A program made the position numbers and the translations under genes. Positions 17,713 to 44,450 of a stretch of DNA of 50,548 bases are shown piece after piece. A model generated the notes under the pieces. That model was not told the origin of the DNA. It searched no databases and saw only the letters and a program-made list of their open reading frames with translations. The DNA is from Candidatus Brevefilum sp. (GTDB lineage: Bacteria; Chloroflexota; Anaerolineae; Anaerolineales; Anaerolineaceae). The number at the start of each line of letters is the position of its first letter. Positions within the stretch are counted from its first letter, which is position 1. The DNA lies in assembly GCA_019428905.1 (NCBI GenBank), contig JAHYJN010000017.1, forward strand, positions 1 to 50,548. Direction: 5' to 3'.

Positions 17713-18660
17713 TCAATCCAGCAGGTCGTGCACGTTCTGGACAGCCTCATCAAGGCTCGTTCCCAGGAAGATACCGTCCAAATCTTTACGCGCCGCTTCA
17801 TTTTGATTGAAATAGCGGCCGCCGTAACCCAGTTTGGGCTTTCCCGGCAGCTGATCCAGTTTGGCTTGCATACGATATAACGGCCTGGCAGACTCATCAA
17901 AACTAGCCGAAAGGATGATCATATCCGGCGAAGTATCCTCTGCATAAAACACCAGGTCCTCCACCGGCAGATCAGCCCCCAGGTATTCCACCTGGTAACC
18001 CTCACGGCGCAGGAGCACCGACAGCATCAGGGGGGCGATCTCATGGAACTCCTCCGGGGCGCAACCGATCAACAACCTGGGCGCCTCACTGTAAATGGGA
18101 AACGCCTGCAACAGGTTCATCAGGATGCCCCGGATGAAGGCCGAGGCGAAGTGTTCTGTTGCAATGCGGATCTCACCACGGTACCAGGCCTCACCGATCT
18201 CAACCAAGCATGGATAGAAGACCTCCAGGAAAATGGTCTGAATGTCGTACATACTCTGAATGGCATCCACAATCTGCTTGGCCTGGGCTTCATCGTGACC
18301 GGTCAAGGCGGTAAACAATTGATCCGCGTAGTAGCTGGTGGGGTGTCGAGGGGCTTGCGAGGGCTGGGGCGCCAGCACGGTTGGCAGCGCCTCCGGCCAG
18401 ATGCCGCTTTCTCGCAACCCCCGGTATTCGCGCACCGCGTTGCTGATCGAAAGCCCTTCATCCAAGCGGTGGGTGATCCAACGAATCACCTGGATATCTC
18501 GCTCAGAATATAAGCGGTAGTTGTTATCCAGCCGGCCAGGGTCCAGCAGGTCATAACGCCGTTCCCAGGCACGCAGGGTCACCGGGCGCACACCCGTGCG
18601 GTCACTGAGGACCTTGATGGTATATTTTGGCTCTTGTGAATATTCTGCAATCGAAACCAT
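17713..18660 (-). CDS. CarH-like MerR regulator with cobalamin-binding domain
   Basis: The 315-aa protein has an N-terminal MerR winged helix (YTIKVLSDRTGVRPVTLRAWERRY, about 13-36), a Thr/Pro-containing linker, a four-helix B12-binding bundle (about 110-185) and a C-terminal Rossmann B12-binding domain (about 195-315). The bundle carries the W-x9-EH motif (Trp159, Glu169, His170) that marks adenosylcobalamin photoreceptors of the CarH/LitR type. The lower ligand region EEFHEIAP keeps the His (His206) but has Ala where DxHxxG-type motifs have Gly. CarH proteins repress in the dark and release DNA in light. SD AAGGTG precedes ATG 18660. It lies 44 bp after the CapA-type gene on the same strand. 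Its targets are not visible. Confidence 0.85.
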   Translation of the reverse strand: MVSIAEYSQEPKYTIKVLSDRTGVRPVTLRAWERRYDLLDPGRLDNNYRLYSERDIQVIRWITHRLDEGLSISNAVREYRGLRESGIWPEALPTVLAPQPSQAPRHPTSYYADQLFTALTGHDEAQAKQIVDAIQSMYDIQTIFLEVFYPCLVEIGEAWYRGEIRIATEHFASAFIRGILMNLLQAFPIYSEAPRLLIGCAPEEFHEIAPLMLSVLLRREGYQVEYLGADLPVEDLVFYAEDTSPDMIILSASFDESARPLYRMQAKLDQLPGKPKLGYGGRYFNQNEAARKDLDGIFLGTSLDEAVQNVHDLLD

Positions 18661-34294: not shown

Positions 34295-36115
34295 TTAGTC
34301 CAGGGTATCGGATAAACGTCTTTCCTCACGGATTGGTGTGACATCATCCCATTGCTCATAACAATCCATAAATCCATATTTATTAGGCCTTGTCAGCATG
34401 CCAGGGTTGAGATAGTCGGGATGTGTGATGCCCGGTGCTGTCATGATGCGGGTCTGCAGTGCTTGGTGTAACACATCTGGATCTGAAAGCGTTTGGCACA
34501 GGTCCCCACCCCCAGGGGACAAGGCGGCGATCTTGGTTAACACATATTGAGCTTCGCCCAACAAATGATCCCGTCGCTGCAGGACGATGGGGTGATCCAG
34601 GTATTTCTTCAAATCCGGCTCATTTTCTTTAAATAACCGCACAGCCCGCCTGACCAGCATTGAACTCTCGATCACGTCTTCAGTCGTGGCTGCGTGGTCC
34701 GCTTCGCAATAGCTGACCAGGTGAATTATGCTGGGGGACAGGATCATCTGCAGTAATGTTGTCCGCGCCAACTGGAACTTGGCGGTATTGAGATCGGTGC
34801 TGAAATGCTCGATCCCGGAACGTGTTTCGAGGTAAACCCTGGCCGGATGACGCTGCGGCCTGATCCGTTCAACGATCTCGCGGGCAGCGGCCATTTTTCC
34901 CAGGTCAGCAAAATCCCCTGTTTCTGTCGGCTTGTTGAATTGGCACTGCAGAATCATATCCTTAACCCCGGCAGTGAACATCACAGCGGCGATCAGCGCG
35001 TAGTCGACGACAAACAGGGTATCGTGCACGTAGCGTGATGACCACTGATTGGGGTCATTCATCTCAACCGGGATACCCTTCAATGCCAGGTAAGCTACGG
35101 CTTCGATGTGCTCTTCGAGGGCATCTCGAACAGAAAGCGGCCCGCGGCCGTCCAGCTCGCAAAACCAAAATAAGGGGACCGCTTGATGGGCGCCAACCAG
35201 CATGCCCACCTCCAGGCAGGCATCGATGAATTCTTTCAGGTTGACCACATGCGCGTAAGGTTTTATCGATGGGAAATTGCCCCTGCGGGTTGCCAGGTAC
35301 AGTTTTTCTAGATCTTCTGTGGACTTATACGGAACGCCCCCATCATTCTTTCGATCCTCAAAGGCCTTGAGATCCCCAAAATAGCGTTGTGATAAATCTG
35401 AAGAGCCTAATGAAATTTCATCGACAGCCCCATTCAGGGCGATCTTCTCGATGCCTTCAACTGTGGGTTGGATTGAGTTACTCGGTATACCAAAATGCGT
35501 CCGGATCAGCGGGATCTGCGTTTCTTCGATCCGCCTGGGGAGAGATCTTATCGCTTGGGGGCTTGGTTTCGACAATGGACTTTCTGGAAAGTACGTGTAA
35601 GTATCGAGCACCCGGCTCGCGATCTGGTCCAATTCGGGGATCTTTTCCGGCTCGGATTCCCGCAACAGGGTATCAAGTATTTCTGAGCGCCTCTGATCGG
35701 ATTTCACATCCAGGAAATCCAATACACGCAAGATGTTATCATGATAACTGGTTTCAGCGCCGATCAACACCAGCTCATATTGAGCTTGAAGTCCGCTGCT
35801 CTGTACCGCTTTCAAGGTTGCAGGTAGGGCAGCAAAGCCGATCCGCCTCTCTCTGCGATCGATTAAACCTACATTGGCCATTTGGTTGAGGAATTTCCGC
35901 AATTCCATTAGGGCGATTTCGGGGCTTAACCGGTAGCTCAGACCAATAAAGCGCGGATCCTGCTCTTTAAGGATGCGCAATTTATCAGCATCACCCGTGG
36001 CCGGTGGCATGATCTGATAGGCAATACCAGCCGCTCGCGCAATTTTTCCTGCTTTATGGATGCCGACGGTGTGCGGGTCATTTCCCAGGGTTAACCCGAT
36101 AAAGATTTCTTGCAT
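34295..36115 (-). CDS. Cobalamin-binding, glutamate-mutase-like protein
   Basis: From the third-codon ATG at 36115 (AAGGA six bases upstream) the product has 606 aa. The N-terminal 130 residues look like a B12-binding Rossmann domain: GNDPHTVGIHKAG carries D-x-H-x-x-G, followed by FIGLSYRLS (S-x-L region) and IGFAALPAT in the third-motif position. The remainder (about 200-600) has alternating strand/helix character of a TIM-barrel, with GGVPYKSTEDLE, AVPLFWFCELDGRGPL and KGIPVEMNDPNQWS, reminiscent of methylaspartate (glutamate) mutase E subunits. A mutase acting by an adenosyl radical is the best guess; methyltransferase is an alternative. It follows an opine-dehydrogenase-like gene by 122 bp on the same strand. 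Confidence 0.6.
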   Translation of the reverse strand: MQEIFIGLTLGNDPHTVGIHKAGKIARAAGIAYQIMPPATGDADKLRILKEQDPRFIGLSYRLSPEIALMELRKFLNQMANVGLIDRRERRIGFAALPATLKAVQSSGLQAQYELVLIGAETSYHDNILRVLDFLDVKSDQRRSEILDTLLRESEPEKIPELDQIASRVLDTYTYFPESPLSKPSPQAIRSLPRRIEETQIPLIRTHFGIPSNSIQPTVEGIEKIALNGAVDEISLGSSDLSQRYFGDLKAFEDRKNDGGVPYKSTEDLEKLYLATRRGNFPSIKPYAHVVNLKEFIDACLEVGMLVGAHQAVPLFWFCELDGRGPLSVRDALEEHIEAVAYLALKGIPVEMNDPNQWSSRYVHDTLFVVDYALIAAVMFTAGVKDMILQCQFNKPTETGDFADLGKMAAAREIVERIRPQRHPARVYLETRSGIEHFSTDLNTAKFQLARTTLLQMILSPSIIHLVSYCEADHAATTEDVIESSMLVRRAVRLFKENEPDLKKYLDHPIVLQRRDHLLGEAQYVLTKIAALSPGGGDLCQTLSDPDVLHQALQTRIMTAPGITHPDYLNPGMLTRPNKYGFMDCYEQWDDVTPIREERRLSDTLD

Positions 36116-36237
36116 GATCATTCCTTCAAGAGTTAAACAGCAAAATCAATACATGCCGTCGTATCTGAATTTTAACAAGTTTATTTTACATTTTTTTCCG
36201 AGCACCAGGTGATTGCCACAACAAAACAGAAGCGTAT

Positions 36238-37569
36238 TTAGAGATTCACCACACGATATACGACCTCAGGATCTGAGATTAACCCGCTTTGCACCGGTAC
36301 CCGGCGATTGATGACTGAAAGCTTTCCAGTGAGATAATCAACAATAAAATCGGTTGAAAAATGCGCCAGATCCCGCCAATCGTGACCGGTGCCATTCTTA
36401 TAATGGGTGTGGTAGAGGTCTAAAACTCGCTGCAAAGGGGCTCCATCAATATCAAGCCGTTCAGCGATAGCCAAGAGTGGGACAATGCCTGTGGGTATAT
36501 CCTCTTCAACATAGCGGCTCTGGGGAATGGAATTTTTTTGATACGTCGGGGTACGCCCAATGGCTTTCTGCAGGCTCTCACCCTTGATCTTGCGCACACC
36601 GTAGGTGTAATCCAACCAGTGCTGGACTGAAGTGATGGCATGGCTGATCACAATCAGGTGGTCATGTCGAATATGCCTTAAATCCTCAACATCATCTGCA
36701 TGCCGCGCCTCTTCCCTGCGCAATTTGTCAATCAGAACCTTCCAAACATTATCGCGTGGATCTTCCCTCAGCCCAAACACCTGCAAACCAAGGGCATCGG
36801 CGATCTTCAGCCGTACCTGGTCAACATCTTCCAGGGCATTGGCAACTTCAGGATTGTCAGCGATGCCATCCATGTAGAAGTTGTATACTTTTTCATAAAA
36901 TTCAGCCTGTTTAATGGCCTCATAGTTTAATAAATACGGCGCCGGATGTAACACAGCGCCAATATTTCCAATCGATGTTGTCGCGGGGATATTGTTAAAG
37001 ATGGCCTGTGGAAACAAGCTTTCAAGCAGATCAACATGCTCGTGGTTGAAATGACCCTCTAAGGAGGCGACCCAATTTCTCTTCCTTCTTTTGATAAACA
37101 CGGTACCGCTATGCGGTGTTTTGCAGGAATAAGGGCAGGTCGCAAAGCTAACGAAGGGATAGCCTGCGCCTAAGATTTCCCACAAGTAGGGGACCGCAAA
37201 AGTCCTGGATGGTGAAAGAACGATCGGGATGCGCTTTTCTGTTATCCCAGCTTCTTTAAGCTCCTGGATCGTCTTGACAAAATAATGAGAGGGGTGAGCG
37301 ATAATCAGGATATCTGAATGGTCGATCAAAGACCGCAAGTCATGCCCAATCTTGCCATCACCCAAAGGGACAAACTTCGATGCCTCATCGTTGCGGTTGT
37401 GATCAGGCCGAATCAGGTAAATGCCCCCCTGTTGATTAACGGTGTCCACAAATTCAACCCCATGATGCGATGTCCTGGCGTAGCCATACACGACGTGACC
37501 CTGTTTGATCATATCGACAAGGTACGCCCCACCCGATTGAGAGCTAACGGAATGTATCCCGATATTCAT
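36238..37569 (-). CDS. Opine/octopine dehydrogenase-like protein
   Basis: The 443-aa protein matches the octopine/nopaline/staphylopine dehydrogenase fold: an N-terminal NAD(P) domain with SDILIIAHPSHYFVKTIQEL and IPIVLSPSRTFA, FATCPYS..TPHSGTVFIKRRK, the catalytic-domain start NIGAVLHPAPYLLNYE and the C-terminal PQSRYVEEDIPTGIVPLLA. Such enzymes reductively couple an amino acid with a keto acid. The usual GxGxxG of the first strand is absent (IGIHSVSSQSGGAYL instead), so cofactor binding may differ. It lies upstream of the B12 mutase-like gene. No nicotianamine-synthase-like gene is near. Confidence 0.72.
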   Translation of the reverse strand: MNIGIHSVSSQSGGAYLVDMIKQGHVVYGYARTSHHGVEFVDTVNQQGGIYLIRPDHNRNDEASKFVPLGDGKIGHDLRSLIDHSDILIIAHPSHYFVKTIQELKEAGITEKRIPIVLSPSRTFAVPYLWEILGAGYPFVSFATCPYSCKTPHSGTVFIKRRKRNWVASLEGHFNHEHVDLLESLFPQAIFNNIPATTSIGNIGAVLHPAPYLLNYEAIKQAEFYEKVYNFYMDGIADNPEVANALEDVDQVRLKIADALGLQVFGLREDPRDNVWKVLIDKLRREEARHADDVEDLRHIRHDHLIVISHAITSVQHWLDYTYGVRKIKGESLQKAIGRTPTYQKNSIPQSRYVEEDIPTGIVPLLAIAERLDIDGAPLQRVLDLYHTHYKNGTGHDWRDLAHFSTDFIVDYLTGKLSVINRRVPVQSGLISDPEVVYRVVNL

Positions 37570-39783: not shown

Positions 39784-39890
39784 CTCTTATCCAGAGAGGT
39801 GAAGGGACCGGCCCGATGATACCTCGGCAACCAGAAAGCTACGCTTTCACGGTGCCAACTCCGGCAGAGCGATATTCTGGAAGATGAGAG
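39784..39890 (+). promoter_or_regulatory. SAM-I (S-box) riboswitch
   Basis: The P1 strands CTCTTAT and ATGAGAG enclose the S-box core: AGAGAGGTGAAGGGACCGGC-type P2 region, GATGATACCTCGGCAACC and GGTGCCAACTCCGGCAGA. It binds S-adenosylmethionine and should shut down metK when SAM is abundant. The 3' P1 strand GAGAGGG (39886-39892) can pair with CCCTCTC (39913-39919) as antiterminator. Confidence 0.93.
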
Positions 39891-39938: not shown

Positions 39939-39970
39939 CGATCTTTATCTGAGACATGGAGGTTCTCACA

Positions 39971-41187: not shown

Positions 41188-41354
41188 TAGTGAATAGTGA
41201 GTTGTGAATAGTGAATGGTGAATAGTTCCCTCATCTTAACTAGGGTTTTCAGAAATGTTCTCTTGAAACAGAATCTGTTTTTAAGTGTTTCAATAATTTC
41301 TTTCTAAGATTGATTATTGAACCATTCACTCAATCACTATTCACCATTCACCTA
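41188..41354. repeat. Inverted heptamer arrays with internal terminator-like stem
   Basis: Left array: GTGAATA, GTGAGTT, GTGAATA, GTGAATG, GTGAATA (about 41190-41224). Right array, reading the reverse strand: GTGAATG, GTGAATA, GTGATTG, AGTGAATG (about 41320-41352). The two are inverted copies separated by about 95 bp. Within is AAACAGAATCTGTTTTT (about 41266-41282), a short stem with T-run that can terminate metK. The right array reaches the stop codon of the next gene. Confidence 0.7.
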
Positions 41355-42320
41355 ATTTATTTCCAGAAGATCCCCCTGGTACTTCCTGGCAAACAGTGCT
41401 GGACCCCCACCGGTGTGCCAGAACAGCACCGTTTCCTCGGGTTTGAAGAATCCCTGGCGGATCAAATCAATCAAACCGGCTGCTGCCCGCCCGGTATAAA
41501 CCGGGTCAACTAGCAGCGCTTCATAGGCCGCAAACAAGCGGATCGCCTCAACCTCAGCTGAGCCCATCACGGCGTAGCCCCCGCCCAGGTAATCGTCGTT
41601 CACCAGCACATCTTCGGCACTAAAAGTTACTTGACGGCCAATAAAATCAGCTGTCTGTATGGCGAGGTCAGCCACACGCGCCTTGAGCTCATCTGCCGTC
41701 TCATCCACGCTGATGCCAAGAATCTTCCCGTGGTACCCGCTGATGTGCGCCCCAACCAGCATCCCGGCCTGGGTGCCGCCCGATGAGCTGGGAAACACGA
41801 TCCAATCCGGGTCGACGCCCTGTTCGGCCAGCTCCAGCATGGCATTCACATACCCTAAGGCGCCCGTGGGGTTCGACCCACCGTATGGGATCAGGTAAGG
41901 CTGTTTGCCCGCGCCCAAGACGCTTTCATAAACCTCTTCCAGTTTTTGTTGAACCCTCTCCCGCCCTGTAAAAACCACTTCAGCGCCTAACAGATAATGC
42001 AGAAGATGGTTGCCATCCGGTGGATCTGGTGGGTTGCCAAACAAGACCAGGACGCAAGCCATCCCAAACCTGGCAGCAGCAGCCACCGTCTGGCGGCAGT
42101 GGTTGGACTGCACCGCTCCAGCCGTAATCAGTGTATCCGCCCCTGCCTCTTGCGCGGCGTACATCAGGTACTCCAATTTGCGGGTTTTATTGCCGCCAAA
42201 AGCCAACCCCGTTTGATCATCGCGTTTGGTGATCAACGTCGGCCCCCCCAGCAAGGCAGAGAGGCGCGGCAGGGGCTCAACAGGTGTGGGTAAGTGAGCA
42301 AATCGTAAGCGTGGTTTCAT
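41352..42320 (-). CDS. D-cysteine desulfhydrase/ACC-deaminase-family PLP enzyme
   Basis: From ATG 42320 the product has 322 aa: LPTPVEPLPRLSALLGG near the N-terminus, the PLP lysine in FGGNKTRKLEYL, ITAGAVQSNHCRQTVAAAA, IPYGGSNPTGALGYV, FPSSSGGTQAGMLVGA and FWHTGGGPALFA near the end, all typical of the D-cysteine desulfhydrase (DcyD/YedO) and ACC deaminase group. DcyD-like enzymes degrade D-cysteine to pyruvate, ammonia and sulfide; ACC deamination is less likely but not excluded. Its ATG overlaps the stop of the FemAB gene upstream (ATGA), so it is co-translated with it. The heptamer array touches its stop codon. Confidence 0.88.
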   Translation of the reverse strand: MKPRLRFAHLPTPVEPLPRLSALLGGPTLITKRDDQTGLAFGGNKTRKLEYLMYAAQEAGADTLITAGAVQSNHCRQTVAAAARFGMACVLVLFGNPPDPPDGNHLLHYLLGAEVVFTGRERVQQKLEEVYESVLGAGKQPYLIPYGGSNPTGALGYVNAMLELAEQGVDPDWIVFPSSSGGTQAGMLVGAHISGYHGKILGISVDETADELKARVADLAIQTADFIGRQVTFSAEDVLVNDDYLGGGYAVMGSAEVEAIRLFAAYEALLVDPVYTGRAAAGLIDLIRQGFFKPEETVLFWHTGGGPALFARKYQGDLLEIN

Positions 42321-43432
42321 ATGCTGAGACTCCTTTTGGTTGAGGTTTTTCCACGTGCCCGCATAACAGCCAGCACGCGCGGCAGGGTCTGGCTGTACAG
42401 GCGGTAGATCAACGGGTGCACGGGCAGATCCCATGCCCCAAGCGTGCGCAGGACATAACCGCCAAACCCATCCTTGAACCGGTAAACGCCCCACAATGGG
42501 TCATCCTTAGTGAAGGTATCCGGGGCACCCCACATATCATAGGTGTGGCATCCGGCCGCCTTTGAACGCCGCATCCCCTCCCACTGCAGGCGGTAATTGA
42601 ACATTTTCTCACGGTGATCATCCAGTGACATGCCGTGCATGTACCAGGCGCGCCCGGCAAACCTAAAAATAACAACACCCCCCACCGGCTCGCCCTCCAC
42701 TTCTGCGATCAATGGTTCAGCCAAACCCGCCTTGAAAAATGCCTGCCAAACCGCCTGGTAATAGGGTTTGCCTCGAATCAGGAAATCATCCCGCACAGCT
42801 GTGTGGGCATACATCTGGTAGAGCAGATCAATATCCGCGACGCCACCGGGCCGCACGGTCACGCCGCGGCGCTCTGCCAAGCGGATGTTATAGCGGGTTT
42901 TGGACTTCATCCGCATCAGCAGGGCATCTTCCTCTTCGGTCAGGTCAACCTCAACGGTATTGCGAAATTGAATTTGTTCATCTGAGAAGATCCATCCTCG
43001 AGCTTTCAGTTGGTTCTGGACAGAAATACCCACCGGGTGATCATCCACCCCACCCTCACCGGGGATGCCATACCCAACTGGCAGATCGGGGTCAATTTTG
43101 AGAAATATGGCGCCTTTTTGGCGGGCAAACCCACCCAGGTCATCCAAAACTGTTTTTACCAAAGCCTGGTCCGACCAATCCAACATAGGGCCGCGGGGGA
43201 GATACATCACACCCAGGGGTAAGGCAAACCCACCCAGGATCAGCTTGCGCTCAAGGAGTAACGCTGCCGCACACACCTCACCCGAATCACACCGCCAGAG
43301 CAGGTGAAAAGGATCCCATCCAAAGCGGGATTTGACCTGCCCCCATGCCCAGGTCTGCAGGGCATGGGCGCCGGGCAAACCTGCAATGAGGGGATCCCAG
43401 TGAGTTGAGTCTTGAATGGTGAGAGCTTCCAA
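42317..43432 (-). CDS. FemAB-type peptidyltransferase (lipid II amino acid ligase family), gene 2
   Basis: The 371-aa product (TTG start at 43432; SD AAGGA overlaps the stop of the gene upstream) has the FemAB/Fem-X two-GNAT fold signs: ALQTWAWGQVKSRFGWDPF, LPLGVMYLPRGPM, MRMKSKTRYNIRLAERRGV, AWYMHGMSLDDHREKMFNYRLQWEGMRRSKAAG and a YDMWGAPD/VYRFKDGFGG ending. Fem enzymes add glycine or other amino acids from aminoacyl-tRNA to the lipid II stem peptide, building the crossbridge. It is a paralogue of the adjacent upstream gene and overlaps the desulfhydrase gene downstream. Confidence 0.88.
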   Translation of the reverse strand: MEALTIQDSTHWDPLIAGLPGAHALQTWAWGQVKSRFGWDPFHLLWRCDSGEVCAAALLLERKLILGGFALPLGVMYLPRGPMLDWSDQALVKTVLDDLGGFARQKGAIFLKIDPDLPVGYGIPGEGGVDDHPVGISVQNQLKARGWIFSDEQIQFRNTVEVDLTEEEDALLMRMKSKTRYNIRLAERRGVTVRPGGVADIDLLYQMYAHTAVRDDFLIRGKPYYQAVWQAFFKAGLAEPLIAEVEGEPVGGVVIFRFAGRAWYMHGMSLDDHREKMFNYRLQWEGMRRSKAAGCHTYDMWGAPDTFTKDDPLWGVYRFKDGFGGYVLRTLGAWDLPVHPLIYRLYSQTLPRVLAVMRARGKTSTKRSLSI

Positions 43433-43445
43433 GTGTCGCAGTTCC

Positions 43446-44450
43446 TTATGCGCCAGCCGGTGCCTGGCGGCGGCCAGACCAAAGCTGATAGGCCTGATAC
43501 AGCAATGGCTGATAAATTCGGTCCCAGGTGCCAATCGTTCGCTTCAGCTCACCGCCAAAACCGCGCTTGAAGCGGTATACGCCCCACAAGCCGTCCGAAC
43601 GATCAAGGAAAGCATCCTCTAATTCGCTCTCCGAAAGGTCCGGCACCCCCCACAGGTCATAGGTTTGGCAGCCTTTCTTTTTCGCCCAACGCATGGCCTC
43701 CCACTGCAACAGATACGTCGGCATGCGGTTGCGCTCGTCGTTCGTCGATGCGCCATAAAAATACCAGGCGGTATCTCCCTGGGCAAAGGCCATCAAAGCC
43801 GCCAGCGGCTGACCCTGGTATTCTGCCACCAGCAGCACACAAGCGCCGTGCGGGGCAAAGCAGTCATATGCACGCTGGTAATAGTCAAGGCTGTGTACGC
43901 CAAAAGCATCCCTTTCCCCGGTGGTGAGCATCATCCTGTGAAAAGCCCCGATGTCTTTGCTCTCCCGCACAAGAACATCCTTACGTTGTGCCAGGCGGAT
44001 GTTGTAACGCGTTTTGGATTTCATCGCCATCAAGGTCTGGTCTTCATCGCCGCTCAAATCCATAATGATCGTGCGCGGCGGCTGAACCGTCTGATCAGAC
44101 TGAACAAAGCCGGGTAGGTGCCTTTGAAAAAACTCGGGCGATACGGGTTCCCAGACATCGGGTTCCACGCGCAGAAAGATCGCCCGCTCCTGTCGGCAAA
44201 GTGCATCGACTTCAGGCCAAAAATCCGCCCAGGCGCCCTCGCCAACCGGGCCGCGCGGGATATACCCGACACTCAACCCTAGAGGCAGGTGTCGAAAAAG
44301 GATCAAAGCCCCCAGTTCGTTATGCTGCACACAGTGCGGTTTCCAGCCAAAAGCAGATTTGAGCTGCCCCCATGAGCTGGTTTGTAAAATATGGGCTTGG
44401 GGATGTTCTTCAAAAAACCGGTCCCATTCCTGTGGTGTCAAGCGTTGCAT
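43446..44450 (-). CDS. FemAB-type peptidyltransferase, gene 1
   Basis: The 334-aa product shows ILQTSSWGQLKSAFGWKPH, LGLSVGYIPRGPVGEG, LMAMKSKTRYNIRLAQRKDV, AWYFYGASTNDERNRMPTYLLQWEAMRWAKKKG and VYRFKRGFGGELKRTIG. These are the conserved stretches of FemAB proteins, including the MKSKTRYN-type motif that starts the second half. Its role should be adding amino acids to lipid II or a similar lipid-linked peptide. It is the first gene of a three-gene operon with a second FemAB and a PLP enzyme. A two-enzyme set may add two residues in sequence, as FemA and FemB do. Confidence 0.88.
   Translation of the reverse strand: MQRLTPQEWDRFFEEHPQAHILQTSSWGQLKSAFGWKPHCVQHNELGALILFRHLPLGLSVGYIPRGPVGEGAWADFWPEVDALCRQERAIFLRVEPDVWEPVSPEFFQRHLPGFVQSDQTVQPPRTIIMDLSGDEDQTLMAMKSKTRYNIRLAQRKDVLVRESKDIGAFHRMMLTTGERDAFGVHSLDYYQRAYDCFAPHGACVLLVAEYQGQPLAALMAFAQGDTAWYFYGASTNDERNRMPTYLLQWEAMRWAKKKGCQTYDLWGVPDLSESELEDAFLDRSDGLWGVYRFKRGFGGELKRTIGTWDRIYQPLLYQAYQLWSGRRQAPAGA

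Follow-up and report, generated by a model that had tools for sequence, protein, structure and literature searches.

Two adjacent genes for a cobalamin-dependent mutase and an opine dehydrogenase form a conserved pair that may serve compatible-solute synthesis

A 50,548-nucleotide stretch of the Candidatus Brevefilum sp. assembly GCA_019428905.1 (contig JAHYJN010000017.1; hereafter the window) carries on its minus strand an opine-dehydrogenase-like gene followed by a gene for a cobalamin (B12)-dependent mutase-like protein, naturally raising the question of what two such enzymes make together. Our analysis suggests that the pair is the core of a conserved module whose product is most likely a compatible solute under the control of cyclic di-AMP (c-di-AMP), which is the best explanation of the whole and one that we hold with middling confidence. 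The argument draws on the family, fold and linkage of the two proteins, and on the riboswitch, ligase genes and MutL observed beside the pair in relatives, outside the window.

A scan of genome contigs found 265 relatives of the mutase, and pairing counts were taken from the best 80. For 77 of these, the contig also bears an opine-dehydrogenase frame on the strand of the mutase gene, in 76 cases within 154 nucleotides (nt) of it; the dehydrogenase stood upstream in 10 of them, including all four loci of the subtype found in the window, and downstream in 67. Mutase relatives were present in 30 of 61 near-relative genomes and, across the phylum, in 16 of 301, the window's own genome included in both. 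They also occurred in 73 of 348 genomes of the phylum of a Tissierellia metagenome-assembled genome (MAG; G354) and in 4 of 149 genomes of the order of a Bacteroidales MAG (G353), counting G354 and G353 themselves. Forty loci from these two sets, among which L200 is the same contig as L060, had the dehydrogenase at the locus in 38 cases, upstream of the mutase in all of the 38 except L199. The dehydrogenase was likewise found in 66 of 70 upstream regions from the G354-phylum set; these regions represent 69 of the 73 genomes (G862 twice; G1059, G880 and G915, partial or broken, and G354 were left out) and include 36 of the 40 loci, so that the two counts overlap. The pairing far exceeds chance, and a comparison of neighbourhoods, by which the earlier note on this DNA had proposed to judge the pair, bears it out in nearly all loci examined. 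Across 121 loci, the distances of the mutase and dehydrogenase proteins correlate at 0.91, as would be expected if the genes are inherited together.

The connection to c-di-AMP comes from the leaders of relatives. The Rfam c-di-AMP riboswitch RF00379 was detected in 30 of the 70 upstream regions (8/20, 13/20, 7/20 and 2/10), always on the operon strand, and the positives are spread over several tree branches. It lay 9–493 nt 5' of the dehydrogenase match in 27 regions and about 1.2–1.3 kb 5' of it in three, with a Ddl-like gene between. In nine of the 20 positive genomes checked, the operon's riboswitch was the only copy in the genome. The L230 leader has a perfect TTGACA-17-TATAAT promoter before the aptamer and a terminator-like 10-pair hairpin after it, and the L237 leader is similar with 11 of 12 promoter matches. 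Twenty of the 30 leaders were put through a crude scan, and 15 of them showed a hairpin of −12 kcal/mol or lower ahead of a run of Ts. According to the available text of three papers, genes that relieve osmotic shock or remodel the cell wall are under the control of c-di-AMP riboswitches (PMC9337991, PMC9481103, PMC10117811), and in the case tested there, the lysine-2,3-aminomutase osmolyte system, high c-di-AMP turns expression off (PMC9337991). Two of the relatives' loci showed further RNA elements: L245 has two c-di-AMP aptamers in tandem before the dehydrogenase (L245:1204-1593), and an OLE RNA (RF01071, 467 bits, 3' end cut; L247:2462-3101) lies near a mutase locus with a c-di-AMP riboswitch.

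Several genes recur beside the pair. MutL, an accessory protein of glutamate mutase, is encoded next to it in 5 of 40 loci by clustering (scanned in L182; Pfam MutL, E 1.2e-164) and in L039 forms a single fused protein with the mutase (MutL, E 4.8e-80); L194 and L195, of the same clade, have frames sized like that of L039, with the extra domain unscanned. Amide-ligase genes are also among the recurrent neighbours. An AsnB-like gene, scanned in L090, occurred in 16 of 97 loci (a set that retains nine near-identical locus pairs), always on the operon strand, and was the second gene behind the mutase in ten of the 16. A Ddl-like ATP-grasp gene adjoins the pair in ten loci of the 70- and 40-locus sets, on the operon strand in L183, L203, L210, L266 and L267 and on the opposite strand in L211, L212, L219, L276 and L278; it is also found, on the operon strand, in L045, L048, L051/L074 (one genome), L077, L078 and L127. 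All five Ddl-like genes that were scanned carry Dala_Dala_lig_C, and the count excludes those of L189 and L190 (two genes off), L217 (6 kb off) and L277 (weak, no dehydrogenase). ATP-grasp and DegT aminotransferase genes both flank or neighbour the pair in L060 and L197 (scanned) and in L198 (by cluster). In 16 of 97 loci, the operon strand also carries a gene for a DUF5698/DUF2179 membrane protein, scanned once (L072:6918-7505), and in 9 of 97 one for a sodium/calcium-exchanger-like protein, named by eye.

What kind of mutase this is was judged from motif, fold and substrate contacts. The N-terminal DxHxxG B12 motif reported in the earlier note is present, and the predicted fold agrees with the B12-binding plus TIM-barrel enzyme that it expected, the barrel being of the mutase type. 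Among 130 unique mutases, His17 and Gly20 of the motif are invariant, while Asp15 occurs in 12, including the window subtype, and Cys takes its place in 118. Pfam B12-binding matched the window mutase weakly (E 0.0067, below the Pfam cut-off) and all 22 members of a family alignment at E up to 1 (best 5e-13). A sequence search of the PDB with the window mutase alone gave no match; the family profile found the B12 subunit of glutamate mutase (E 2.9e-6). The closest fold was glutamate mutase E (MutE), with ornithine and lysine aminomutases also among the nearest, and a profile-profile comparison of the family with MutE gave E 1.4e-8 over residues 330–600. An alignment of the window subtype alone did not match MutE, whereas wider family alignments did. 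Met_asp_mut_E of Pfam was matched by 7 of the 22 alignment members at E up to 1, and the window mutase itself had a match to B12-binding only.

We take MutE R66, R100, R149 and E171 to be the glutamate contacts, E171 holding the amino group. In our alignments, the equivalent of R66 (R207) is kept in 130 of 130 mutases, the R100 position is Ser in the window subtype and Gln in the other 125, the R149 region has K287 or R287 one residue off, and the E171 region is not kept. One of four contacts is therefore retained, as judged by alignment and not from a superposed active site, and the earlier identification as a methylaspartate mutase is not supported. The protein is probably an adenosylcobalamin-type carbon-skeleton mutase with a substrate other than glutamate. 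A pyridoxal-phosphate (PLP)-dependent aminomutase was considered and rejected: the PLP lysine of ornithine aminomutase (OAM) and lysine 5,6-aminomutase presumably lies 13 residues after the Asp of DxHxxG, and this position is Ala, Met or Leu in 130 of 130 sequences and never Lys (Ala28 in the window).

Neither window protein exceeds any NCBIfam cut-off. The dehydrogenase matches Pfam Octopine_DH with 81.2 bits, where the cut-off is 30, in line with the opine-dehydrogenase C-terminal signature claimed earlier. Its PDB match is CENDH (1bg6; sequence E 2.4e-10, profile E 4.3e-96), and it has the two-domain opine-dehydrogenase fold with the Octopine_DH helical domain. H208-P209 is found in at least 97% of 121 aligned relatives, and H208 is presumably the catalytic His of that domain. 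The window enzyme is nearer to CENDH and octopine dehydrogenase than to metallophore enzymes: the staphylopine, pseudopaline and yersinopine dehydrogenases score about ten Z units below CENDH as structural matches, and a metallophore reading is not supported. No nicotianamine-synthase-like, metal-transporter or other metallophore gene was recognised among the recurrent neighbours, most of which were unscanned; no search aimed at such genes was made.

Both window proteins belong to a distinct subtype, which we call W-type. The nearest mutase relatives among the best 80 are on four contigs, labelled Bacillota, Bacteroidales, Tissierellia and Natronobacillus azotifigens, at 61–64% identity, and all four have the dehydrogenase directly upstream with gaps of 66, 19, 11 and 0 nt. 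They group with the window in a single clade (support 100), and three further deep clades lie outside it; because the deep branches are long and meet, we do not trust the order in which these four clades arise. A search of 249 genomes of the Natronobacillus order gave a match only in the N. azotifigens genome itself. Compared with the 125 other unique mutases, W-type proteins have Ser for Gln at 241 and 244, Lys for Arg at 287 and His for Gly at 291. A GxGxxx motif near the N terminus occurs in 147 of 152 unique dehydrogenases, and the five without it are exactly those of W-type, which have a GI(H/Y)xxxSQSG loop. These changes suggest a different substrate and a modified cofactor site. W-type is a rare, scattered subtype with, as far as its residues tell, an altered substrate pocket and cofactor loop; it probably shares the role of other family members.

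Within the window (Table 1), the second ATG of the mutase, at 36115, is better spaced, a few bases 3' of AAGGAA, than that at 36121. With this start, the two frames lie on the minus strand exactly as described before, 122 nt from dehydrogenase stop to mutase start and with a 606-residue mutase.

Table 1. Positions of the two genes and of their sequence features in the window
Feature	Position	Strand	Remark
Opine-dehydrogenase-like gene, 443 aa	36238..37569	minus	transcribed ahead of the mutase gene
Atypical dinucleotide-binding loop GIHSVSSQSG, residues 4-13, replacing GxGxxG	37531..37560	minus	comparison of 152 unique dehydrogenases
Spacer between dehydrogenase and mutase genes, 122 nt	36116..36237	minus	holds Shine-Dalgarno-like AAGGAA before the mutase start
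B12-dependent mutase-like gene	34295..36115	minus	606 aa from second ATG; 608 aa from ATG at 36121
DxHxxG cobalamin motif, DPHTVG, residues 15-20 of 608	36062..36079	minus	read in sequence
TIM barrel and C-terminal part of mutase, residues 188-605 of 608	34307..35560	minus	range aligned to glutamate mutase E

The nagA gene near the pair is closest to two same-genus genomes (53% and 51%, among 21 genomes searched), and in this the contig agrees with its genome. The pair, by contrast, has its nearest relatives on contigs labelled Bacillota and Bacteroidales and was thus probably acquired by lateral transfer, with a chimeric contig as a conceivable alternative. None of seven window genes tried lay within the 1.5-kb flanks of five nagA loci, and no plasmid or phage homologue of the mutase was found at E 1e-3. 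Elsewhere in the window, two overlapping FemAB-like genes lie beside a PLP enzyme and polysaccharide genes (41352-44450, minus); the PLP enzyme is related to D-cysteate sulfo-lyase (360 bits, below the cut-off of 450), and the locus is possibly one for peptidoglycan or surface amino acids. An ordinary S-adenosylmethionine (SAM) riboswitch (RF00162, 90.8 bits; 39784-39890, plus) directly precedes a gene at 39956 that reads, by eye, as S-adenosylmethionine synthetase. A MerR regulator with B12-binding_2 and B12-binding domains (17713-18660, minus) has what we take to be the layout of B12-based light-sensing regulators.

What would the module do? The operon stands behind a c-di-AMP riboswitch in many clostridial-type relatives, and its product is therefore most likely an amino-acid-derived compatible solute, finished by a ligase in some lineages; both the osmolyte role and the identity of the product are argued by analogy. 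The carbon-skeleton mutase and a dehydrogenase of the CENDH/octopine-dehydrogenase kind would give a rearranged, N-substituted amino acid, which the adjacent ATP-dependent ligase would amide-link in several lineages. In clostridial-type relatives, a fall of c-di-AMP in osmotic stress would switch the operon on and the compatible solute would be made; relatives in Bacteroidales seem to employ these enzymes in capsule or extracellular-polysaccharide loci. The earlier note had the mutase make an amino acid that the dehydrogenase then couples into an undescribed opine-like product. The idea of such a product fits our results, but the order of steps that it assumed is unproven: the dehydrogenase-first arrangement of the operon (in the window subtype and in 37 of the 38 paired loci among the 40) fits dehydrogenase before mutase equally well. 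Given that arrangement and the loss of the E171 contact, the mutase could also work on an opine. It is even conceivable, although rather unlikely, that the dehydrogenase acts first and the mutase then rearranges the opine, a secondary-amine amino acid that is later amide-linked, which would be a new class of c-di-AMP-controlled osmolyte, W-type being a variant whose substrate, and perhaps its mode of cofactor use, is different. As the pair often lies behind a riboswitch for a known osmotic-stress messenger, its function is directly testable; if the osmolyte proposal is true, there would be a new, B12-dependent way of making compatible solutes, and the carbon-skeleton mutases would gain a member with a new substrate.

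Several observations weigh against a compatible solute. Forty of the 70 upstream regions have no RF00379, and all six negative genomes checked carry it elsewhere. Searches at the gathering score gave no match for the window pair, for the four W-type loci or in the upstream sequence of six Chloroflexota loci, the only ones of that phylum searched; lowering the threshold to E 0.1 gave none upstream of the window, three W-type and the six Chloroflexota loci. The pairing has exceptions: among the best 80 of the 265 relatives, L068, L084 and L109 have no dehydrogenase on the contig, though one elsewhere in the genome, and in L080 it is 2,219 nt away; four of the 70 regions (L238, L254, L277 and L288, the last at a contig end) lack it upstream, L238 and L254 being the same loci as L192 and L206, the two of 40 without it. 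Ligases occur in a minority of loci, and of the ten Ddl-like genes beside clostridial-type pairs, five run on the opposite strand. Without GxGxxG, NAD(P)H use by the W-type dehydrogenase is not assured. c-di-AMP riboswitches also control transporters and cell-wall enzymes, as the available text of PMC10117811 has it, and the capsule-like context in Bacteroidales argues for envelope use there.

Envelope use is indeed the main rival to an osmolyte, possible but on balance unlikely: the ligase would attach an unusual amino acid or opine either to an amino sugar in a surface polysaccharide or to some component of the cell wall. Alanopine-type substituents occur in some O-antigens. ATP-grasp and DegT genes flank or adjoin the pair in two Bacteroidales-order genomes, L197 (scanned) and L198 (assigned from clusters and by eye), in polysaccharide-like loci whose neighbours were mostly named by eye, L060, which is of the window subtype, is ordered ATP-grasp/dehydrogenase/mutase/DegT, and the window has its FemAB and polysaccharide genes about 5–11 kb from the pair. 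However, nagA, the SAM riboswitch and metK separate these from the pair, and no sugar gene is prominent among the recurrent clostridial and Chloroflexota neighbour clusters, most of them unscanned. Improbable in our view is a catabolic or redox module, in which an amino acid or opine is degraded or the dehydrogenase recycles NADH in anaerobes. Octopine dehydrogenase recycles NADH in invertebrates, and the enzymes with the nearest folds, glutamate mutase and the ornithine and lysine aminomutases, serve amino-acid fermentation; the operon is tied to anaerobes in the available text of PMC2626281. Yet a c-di-AMP riboswitch and amide ligases would be uncommon in a catabolic setting, and the recurrent neighbour clusters, mostly unscanned, yielded no recognisable ammonia-lyase, thiolase or CoA-transferase. 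The literal form of the earlier proposal, in which a methylaspartate mutase supplies 3-methylaspartate to the dehydrogenase, is very improbable: glutamate mutase E as the nearest fold and the invariant R207, equivalent to one substrate-binding Arg, speak for it, but the R100, R149 and E171 equivalents are not kept in alignments and the window mutase has no Met_asp_mut_E match.

Compatible-solute synthesis remains our preferred reading, and the pair can be set against systems already described. A putative operon of an octopine dehydrogenase and a B12-binding protein (Hore_09740/09750) was reported in 2009 in Halothermothrix orenii, where, in the available text, its role was unknown, an adaptation to hot anaerobic habitats was suggested and Roseiflexus was named (PMC2626281). 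The same two annotations stand side by side in the window, Hore_09750 probably belongs to the mutase family by its annotation, and a MAG labelled Roseiflexus (L131) holds the pair in our data. In the literature searched, only that paper was found to name the pair, and nothing joined opine or octopine dehydrogenase with glutamate or methylaspartate mutase, a B12-binding protein or a c-di-AMP riboswitch; as far as the available texts go, the link of the pair to riboswitch, MutL and ligases was not found either. Compared with the H. orenii report, we find the two-gene unit more widely, the mutase in 73 of 348 genomes sampled in one phylum. Riboswitch, MutL and ligase genes accompany it in relatives, and the copy in the window belongs to a divergent subtype. 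The dehydrogenase resembles CENDH (1bg6) and octopine dehydrogenase (3c7a/3iqd) in fold over 336–353 residues, whereas W-type has a GIHSVSSQSG-like loop instead of GxGxxG and some 40 extra residues inserted ahead of W318. Unlike glutamate mutase GlmES/MutES, the window family has its B12 domain fused N-terminally to the barrel, keeps one of the four glutamate contacts and is linked to an opine dehydrogenase nearly everywhere. Lysine-2,3-aminomutase is a radical-SAM enzyme. Its system, preceded by a Na+/c-di-AMP riboswitch tandem, is likewise one in which a mutase under c-di-AMP control makes the precursor of an amino-acid-derived osmolyte, Nε-acetyl-β-lysine, according to the available text of PMC9337991, whereas here a B12 mutase and an opine dehydrogenase would take that part.

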